A DNA stretch of 46,172 nt, from NCBI GenBank assembly GCA_026392155.1, contig JAPLCP010000055.1, forward strand, positions 1 through 46,172. The letters run 5' to 3'. Positions 6,601 through 6,757 of this stretch are shown here, one piece after another. Source of the DNA: Armatimonadota bacterium. Lineage in GTDB: Bacteria > Armatimonadota > Armatimonadia > Armatimonadales > Armatimonadaceae. The notes beneath the pieces were generated by a model. The model saw only the letters and a program-made list of their open reading frames with translations, had not been told where the DNA came from and ran no database searches. Numbering within the stretch: position 1 is the first letter of the stretch; each line of letters starts with the position of its first letter. A program made the position numbers and the translations under genes.

Positions 6601-6718
6601 GCATCCGTAGCTCAGGGGATAGAGCATCCGCCTTCCGTGGTCACAGGCAGTTACATGAGTTCGATTCTCATGACCACGAATAAGCGGAGGGTCGCAGGTT
6701 CGAAACCTGCCGGGTGTA
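6601..6718 (+). tRNA. tRNA-Arg(UCU), anticodon loop interrupted by a 45-nt insert
   Basis: The outer parts form a complete tRNA: acceptor GCATCCG (6601-6607) with CGGGTGT (6711-6717, first pair G-U), TA at 8-9, D arm GCTC/GAGC (6610-6625), anticodon stem TCCGC/GCGGA (6627-6631, 6684-6688), 5-nt variable region, T arm GCAGG/CCTGC around TTCGAAA, and A73 at 6718. No CCA is encoded. The anticodon loop is interrupted: CTTC (6632-6635), 45 extra nt (6636-6680), then TAA (6681-6683). Removing the insert gives loop CTTCTAA and anticodon UCU, matching the Arg-like body. Joining one nt later would give UCC (Gly), but the body argues against it. Removal leaves a normal 73-nt tRNA. Whether it is spliced or is a pseudogene cannot be told from sequence. 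Confidence 0.82.
6636..6680 (+). other. tRNA-minihelix-like insert inside the tRNA-Arg anticodon loop
   Basis: The insert folds like the acceptor/T-arm half of a tRNA. CGTGGTC (6636-6642) pairs perfectly with GACCACG (6672-6678). Directly inside lies ATGAG/CTCAT (6655-6659, 6667-6671) closing TTCGATT, a consensus T loop with G53-C61. A 12-nt linker (6643-6654) replaces the D and anticodon arms, and A6679 is in the discriminator position. The 5' end of this mini acceptor falls exactly at the expected loop junction. At 45 nt it is far too short for a group I intron. Confidence 0.75.
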
Positions 6719-6730
6719 CTCAAAAAACAA

Positions 6731-6757
6731 AAAAGCCGGGATTTCCCGGCTTTTTTT
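6731..6757. terminator. bidirectional terminator between tRNA-Arg and tpiA
   Basis: GCCGGGA (6735-6741) pairs with TCCCGGC (6744-6750). A-tracts on the left and T7 on the right make it a rho-independent terminator on both strands. It serves the tRNA on + and tpiA on minus. Confidence 0.9.

Follow-up and report, generated by a model that had tools for sequence, protein, structure and literature searches.

An interrupted tRNA-Arg(UCU) gene

The window analysed here is a stretch of 46,172 nt from the genome of an Armatimonadota bacterium (assembly GCA_026392155.1, contig JAPLCP010000055.1). At positions 6601–6718 it holds a complete tRNA-Arg(UCU) gene with an interrupted anticodon loop (Rfam RF00005: 50.1 bits, 71 of 71 model positions); a tRNA-Pro(GGG) is also present in the window. 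Once 45 nt are removed, the loop becomes the 7 nt CTTCTAA, which reads UCU, and the cloverleaf is complete. CCA is not encoded at the 3' end of this outer tRNA. ARAGORN misreads the locus as a tRNA-Ser(CGA) at 6631–6719, spanning the inner unit together with the outer 3' half. The exact site of the insert follows from an ortholog without it, which is found in another species of the same genus (genome G001) in the same gene context beside triosephosphate isomerase and reads CTTC/TAA. Because this insert-free gene fixes the junction and neither boundary can slide, the insert comprises exactly the 45 nt from 6636 to 6680, between C35 and U36. A previous sequence-only reading of this DNA had claimed a complete tRNA-Arg body with 45 extra nucleotides at just this place, and both the full-length Rfam match and the G001 ortholog bear this out. 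The locus is composed of the following features:

6601–6635, + strand: 5' exon of tRNA-Arg(UCU) (Rfam RF00005 alignment; intact same-genus ortholog)
6601–6607, + strand: 5' exon, acceptor 5' strand (Rfam alignment)
6610–6625, + strand: 5' exon, D arm (Rfam alignment)
6627–6631, + strand: 5' exon, anticodon stem 5' strand (Rfam alignment)
6632–6635, + strand: 5' exon, loop C32–C35 (Rfam alignment)
6636–6680, + strand: nested tRNA-like insert, 45 nt, between C35 and U36 (absent from the syntenic tRNA-Arg(UCU) of G001)
6636–6642, + strand: inner acceptor-like helix, 5' strand CGTGGTC, beginning at the 5' junction, where RNase P is predicted to cut (fold; pair counts)
6643–6654, + strand: linker ACAGGCAGTTAC replacing the D and anticodon arms and carrying the NNAGG motif, with AGG at 6645–6647 (motif shuffle test)
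6655–6671, + strand: inner T arm, ATGAG, loop TTCGATT, CTCAT (fold; pair counts)
6672–6680, + strand: inner acceptor-like 3' strand GACCACG, discriminator-like A6679 and last insert base A6680 (fold; ortholog junction)
6681–6718, + strand: 3' exon with U36–A38, variable region, acceptor 3' strand and discriminator A6718 (Rfam alignment)
6684–6688, + strand: 3' exon, anticodon stem 3' strand (Rfam alignment)
6694–6710, + strand: 3' exon, T arm (Rfam alignment)
6729–6756, no strand assigned: palindrome resembling a terminator hairpin, located between the tRNA gene and the triosephosphate isomerase gene that converges on it (pattern scan)

Folding of the 118 nt to minimum energy yields the outer cloverleaf together with the inner helices (z -3.1; 0 of 200 shuffles as stable). 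A 7-bp acceptor-like stem stacked on a 5-bp T arm with a TTCGATT loop had been described before, and the fold agrees with it: 7 of 7 acceptor and 5 of 5 T-arm pairs are formed around a 7-nt T loop. Starting from the first insert base, these 12 of 12 pairs were reached in only 2 of 20,000 dinucleotide shuffles. An internal loop of 4 and 5 nt separates the inner helix from the outer anticodon stem of the precursor; there is no bulge-helix-bulge. The 3' tail beyond the inner helix measures 2 nt (A6679 and A6680); it ends in AA and lacks CCA. With a tail of this length, a cut directly behind the discriminator-like A6679 would leave one extra A.

Further interrupted tRNA genes in the genome and the genus

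The tRNA genes of the same assembly (G000; 4.77 Mb, 96.6% complete) were scanned and typed by anticodon. Most of them lack an encoded CCA. Three further tRNAs of about 120–130 nt were found, tRNA-Lys(UUU), Ile2(CAU) and Leu(UAA), with an insert anatomy like that of Arg, and the interrupted copies of Arg(UCU), Lys(UUU), Ile2(CAU) and Leu(UAA) are the only full-scoring genes for those anticodons in the genome. A second tRNA-Arg(UCU), which the sequence-only reading had proposed to look for, was thus not found at full score; the sole competitor is an Arg(UCU)-like gene of 25 bits on contig C57, itself interrupted. Due to the existence of this gene the Arg case alone is no proof of essentiality.

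The genus is represented by two genomes, G000 and G001. The latter carries inserts in Ile2 and Lys, and its Arg and Leu(UAA) genes are intact. As the sister species has an Arg gene free of the insert, the Arg insert was either gained or lost within the genus. Missing conservation of the Arg locus in relatives had been named, together with an intact second copy and a missing transcript, as a sign of a pseudogene; the insert is indeed missing from the sister gene, yet this gene is intact and not dead. G001 provides the empty-site orthologs of Arg and Leu. That of Ile2 comes from G005, a member of the same family, whose uninterrupted Ile2 has a body equal to that of G001 and fixes the third junction. 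In Leu the insert is located at U34/A35.

The Ile2 insert is identical at 49 of 49 nt between G000 and G001. As a neutral comparison, tpiA agrees at 146 of 265 third codon positions (55%), and in the upstream flank 79 of 135 aligned bases are the same. The Lys insert shares 43 of 57 aligned positions; 14 differ, and the helices are kept. Its one purine-purine mismatch is an A.G in one species that became G.A in the other. When the five inserts of the genus are compared, both sides vary in each of the seven acceptor pairs and in four of the five T-arm pairs. For the whole structure 98.2% of the paired cells are complementary, compared with 64% in shuffles and 42–51% when the partners were slid, as counted in an alignment with N padding in the A6 seed and hand-shortened Lys linkers.

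The bacterial inserts are 45–58 nt long. Their inner units have no anticodon arm, and their sequence varies freely between tRNAs. In all five of these sequences the acceptor-like helix starts right at the 5' junction, with the first base of the insert. The 3' tails after the inner helix are 2 or 4 nt long (AA, TA, GA, CAAG, CCGA), whereas the distance from the 3' junction to the outer anticodon stem is constant at 3 nt (4 nt in Leu).

A different insert of about 50 nt was seen in tRNA-Arg(UCU)-like genes, at positions 28/29 of the anticodon stem and ending with TAT or CAT before CGACTTCTAATCG. The loci are L065:416-544 (minus strand; contig C57 of the own genome), L155:3105-3173 (minus strand), L492:4177-4252 and L134, and the sources comprise the own genome, a Deltaproteobacteria MAG, Sphingomonas populi and a viral contig. 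Contigs C57 and C181 of G000 hold dense arrays of unusual tRNA genes which resemble mobile tRNA arrays.

Search for inserts across bacteria

Seeds for covariance models were padded with N and the structure was stated explicitly; a MAFFT alignment of the four tRNAs had misplaced the helices. A first model, R1, gave ordinary tRNAs up to 77 bits and was replaced for the phylum by R2, which consists of anticodon arm, insert and T arm. R2 scored, for each genome, the top candidates of a first look and may have missed weak cases. When it was run on 291 genomes of the phylum, the matches listed contained inserts from the two genus members only; the others listed were 39-nt stretches of ordinary tRNAs. 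The sequence-only reading had suggested looking for the same insert in related genomes; the sister species carries inserts of this kind in Ile2 and Lys, and among the matches listed none of the other genomes does. R2 detected no insert in 50 diverse bacterial genomes, a small sample that proves little. A generic pattern scan over 85,000 species gave, among the matches listed, mostly chance hits with a stray AGAGCA upstream and is no measure of the frequency in bacteria. Plasmid near matches to two of the bacterial nested tRNAs turned out to be only T-arm/acceptor halves of tRNAs.

Nested tRNAs in viral contigs

Pattern scans of IMG/VR located this architecture in numerous viral contigs, whose length is often 100–435 kb and many of which may be fragments; they contain about two dozen nested tRNAs. 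The matches were filtered by a script demanding an intact outer cloverleaf. Before inner-structure scoring this filter passed 130 places in the real loci, including some tandem ordinary tRNAs, versus 3 in reversed sequence. The curated set has 32 members, 5 bacterial and 27 viral; for three of them (L301, L308, L465) the automatic register is ambiguous. The feature kept by all inserts is the acceptor/T-arm stack: all 32 curated cases have a 7-bp acceptor, a 5-bp T arm and a 7-nt T loop, with mismatches in some, and the pair G53-C61 is invariant in 18 curated inserts. In 14 of the 32, all viral, the insert terminates in N73-CCA precisely where the outer exon takes over at the 3' junction. Tails of 2 nt also exist in some phages. 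Most Asn inserts of phages do without a standard 1-72 pair.

The inner units range from armless minihelices of about 45 nt to near-complete tRNAs of about 120 nt, several of which possess D and anticodon arms. One of them (L361) is 85–88% identical to free-standing tRNA-Gly genes of T4-like phages. The host tRNAs include Arg, Lys, Asn, Ile2, Leu(UAA), Thr and Gln. This spectrum is biased, as the scans mostly demanded a T loop and inserts followed by TAA. Asking for other bases in front of AA yielded two matches, of which one, L349 (Arg), was confirmed. Directly 3' of the acceptor strand, NNAGG is found in 11 of 16 short-linker inserts from bacteria and phages (at most 4 of 16 in any of 5,000 shuffles), although these 16 are not all independent because several Asn cases are related. 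The motif is possibly a remnant of the D-loop GG (G18-G19) that docks on the T loop.

Agrobacterium phage Atu_ph07 has been published as lacking tRNA-Asn (PMC6102473). We found a nested tRNA-Asn(GUU) in this phage at 323905–324023 and a nested Lys-type tRNA at 68159–68280, both of them unannotated and missed by ARAGORN. Hand reading assigns the second one as Lys(UUU), the script register as UGU. The phage also encodes an RNA ligase of the T4 Rnl1 type, and a tRNA nucleotidyltransferase was reported for it (PMC6102473).

Several viral loci deviate from the common pattern. L389, L383, L425 and L427 are longer nested tRNAs with a common leader hairpin, TGGTTnACCGAAAnnAACCA, before the inner tRNA and a short tail of TC type. 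In L474:51-246 (viral contig G302) a tRNA-Lys carries an insert of about 120 nt that ends in ACCA and has an anticodon-arm-like hairpin with the loop CTGATAG; possibly this inner tRNA is itself interrupted. The anticodon-loop inserts of the phage loci L466 (Atu_ph07 335108–335213), L468 and L476 are without the clear T arm of the nested class. Those of L466 and L468 are simple hairpins, and L466 adjoins a homing endonuclease gene. The unusual T loop TGCAAAT is common to the Lys inserts L228, from the same-genus species, and L465, from Atu_ph07, and differs from the TTCRANT of most others. Inserts residing in the same type of tRNA may have a relationship that spans hosts and phages.

Proposed excision of the insert

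On comparing sequences, the status of the inserts as introns is strongly supported. The sequence-only reading had already leaned towards an intron, and this gains weight from the precise empty sites, the four tRNAs present as the only full-scoring copies, the complete conservation in Ile2 and the N73-CCA ends in viruses. We consider it probable that the insert is a tRNA-mimicking intron within a functional tRNA, which is cut at its tRNA-like ends by RNase P (5') and an RNase Z-like activity (3') and sealed by an RNA ligase. RNase P would cut the transcript before the first base of the inner acceptor-like helix. RNase Z or a similar endonuclease would cut at the 3' end of the inner tRNA, a step in which we have less confidence than in the 5' one. 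The outer halves would stay together via the acceptor, D and T arms until an RNA ligase joins them in the anticodon loop.

RNase P, RNase Z and a ligase are the enzymes that we infer for these steps. It is established that RNase P and RNase Z need no more than the acceptor/T-arm unit as substrate. Ends resembling their cleavage sites had been claimed for the Arg insert; on the 5' side the geometry fits in all five genus sequences, but the 3' tails of 2 or 4 nt do not conform to a simple cut behind position 73. The 3' enzyme is uncertain, because the 2-nt tails of Arg, Lys and some phages fit no cut after position 73 or 76. Since cuts by RNase P and RNase Z leave a 3'-OH and a 5'-phosphate, the ligase would most likely be an ATP-dependent one of the Rnl type. 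RtcB or another RNA ligase had been suggested as something to search for, and G000 has both, RtcB and a PF09414 RNA ligase beside an HD-plus-kinase protein. Relatives without inserts also have such genes, therefore these are permissive and not diagnostic. The archaeal-type tRNA endonuclease PF01974 is absent in G000, G001 and 19 relatives and was found in four out of four archaeal controls. Rnl1 is not enriched in phage contigs bearing nested tRNAs (6 of 20 versus 7 of 20 controls; over cut-off or E <= 0.001).

The inserts could also be introns excised by a dedicated nuclease for the anticodon loop or the internal loop and repaired by a cassette of HD-kinase with RNA ligase, or by RtcB, with the tRNA-like fold serving only recognition or stability. 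Such genes are present in G000, and it is the outer anticodon stem, not the inner helix, from which the 3' junction keeps its distance. This reading is nevertheless rather unlikely: the 5' junction falls on the first inner-helix base in every genus sequence and a CCA end marks the 3' junction in the 14 viral cases, which together indicate tRNA end-processing. For an RNA that splices itself, or a degenerate group I intron, speak only that the bacterial tRNA introns known before belong to group I and that Leu(UAA) is their classic host, with the Leu insert at the same U34/A35. However, the 45–58 nt of the bacterial inserts leave no space for a group I core, the window yields only tRNA matches at the Rfam gathering thresholds, and the conserved features are those of a tRNA, so that we regard this origin as extremely improbable.

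That the insertions simply destroyed the tRNAs might be read from the insert-free Arg gene of the sister species. Four tRNAs without another full-scoring gene, Ile2 and Leu(UAA) among them, would then be dead in an assembly of such completeness, whereas their outer cloverleafs are intact, the inserts are precise, structured and conserved, and the pattern recurs in phages. The pseudogene option of the sequence-only reading has, therefore, become very unlikely. Just as unlikely is the idea that the inner RNA is the actual product and the outer tRNA a scaffold from which a small tRNA-like RNA is expressed. Near-complete inner tRNAs in phages and the resemblance of one of them to a free tRNA-Gly are in its favour; but the core common to all inserts is the processing unit only, the bacterial forms do without an anticodon arm and vary freely from tRNA to tRNA, and the outer tRNAs are well kept, in G000 each as the only full-scoring gene of its kind. 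Excision of a tRNA-shaped intron by end-processing and ligation is the reading that we prefer.

Comparison with known introns

We found no published description of nested tRNAs of this kind in the literature searched, outside of which lie bioRxiv preprints and most subscription journals. On balance we favour the view that phages and a few bacteria have a general class of nested-tRNA introns. Its members would be entire tRNA genes inserted in an anticodon loop and removed by normal tRNA end-processing, with a ligase sealing the outer halves, and the inner tRNA may shrink with time to the acceptor/T-arm unit. If true, RNA splicing would have a further route besides self-splicing, the spliceosome and the tRNA endonuclease of archaea and eukaryotes. 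Bacteria are taught to have self-splicing tRNA introns only; with a tRNA-shaped intron, splicing would arise from end trimming plus RNA ligation, and the RNA ligases of phages and bacteria would have a constructive substrate besides repair. Annotation is affected as well, as nested genes are missed or misread by ARAGORN, which would explain tRNAs reported as missing and touches studies on codon usage and tRNA repertoire in giant phages.

To our knowledge, the known bacterial tRNA introns are group I introns. These are self-splicing, have a conserved catalytic core and are usually longer than 200 nt. The group I introns of tRNA-Leu(UAA), fMet(CAU), Ile2(CAU) and Arg(CCU) resemble the nested inserts in sitting in the anticodon loop of single-copy bacterial tRNAs, in overlapping host tRNAs and, for Leu, in the position U34/A35. 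In contrast, nested inserts measure 45–58 nt in bacteria and up to about 120 nt in phages, are shaped like a tRNA and have no ribozyme core. The tRNA introns of archaea and eukaryotes are recognized by a bulge-helix-bulge, cut by the EndA/TSEN endonuclease and located mostly at 37/38. They too are short, lie in the anticodon loop and need a protein endonuclease and a ligase, as the nested inserts presumably do, but these lack the bulge-helix-bulge and the genome lacks a tRNA_int_endo gene.

With phage RNA repair (PrrC, T4 Pnkp, Rnl1) the proposed route would share the step in which an RNA ligase of phage or bacterial type closes a nick in the anticodon loop of a tRNA. The break made by PrrC is toxin damage, whereas that at a nested insert would be a programmed step which removes an inserted tRNA. 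Armless and minihelix tRNAs, finally, also keep the acceptor/T-arm stack as the minimal unit for tRNA end-processing; the nested unit differs from them in that it sits inside another tRNA, flanked by its two halves.
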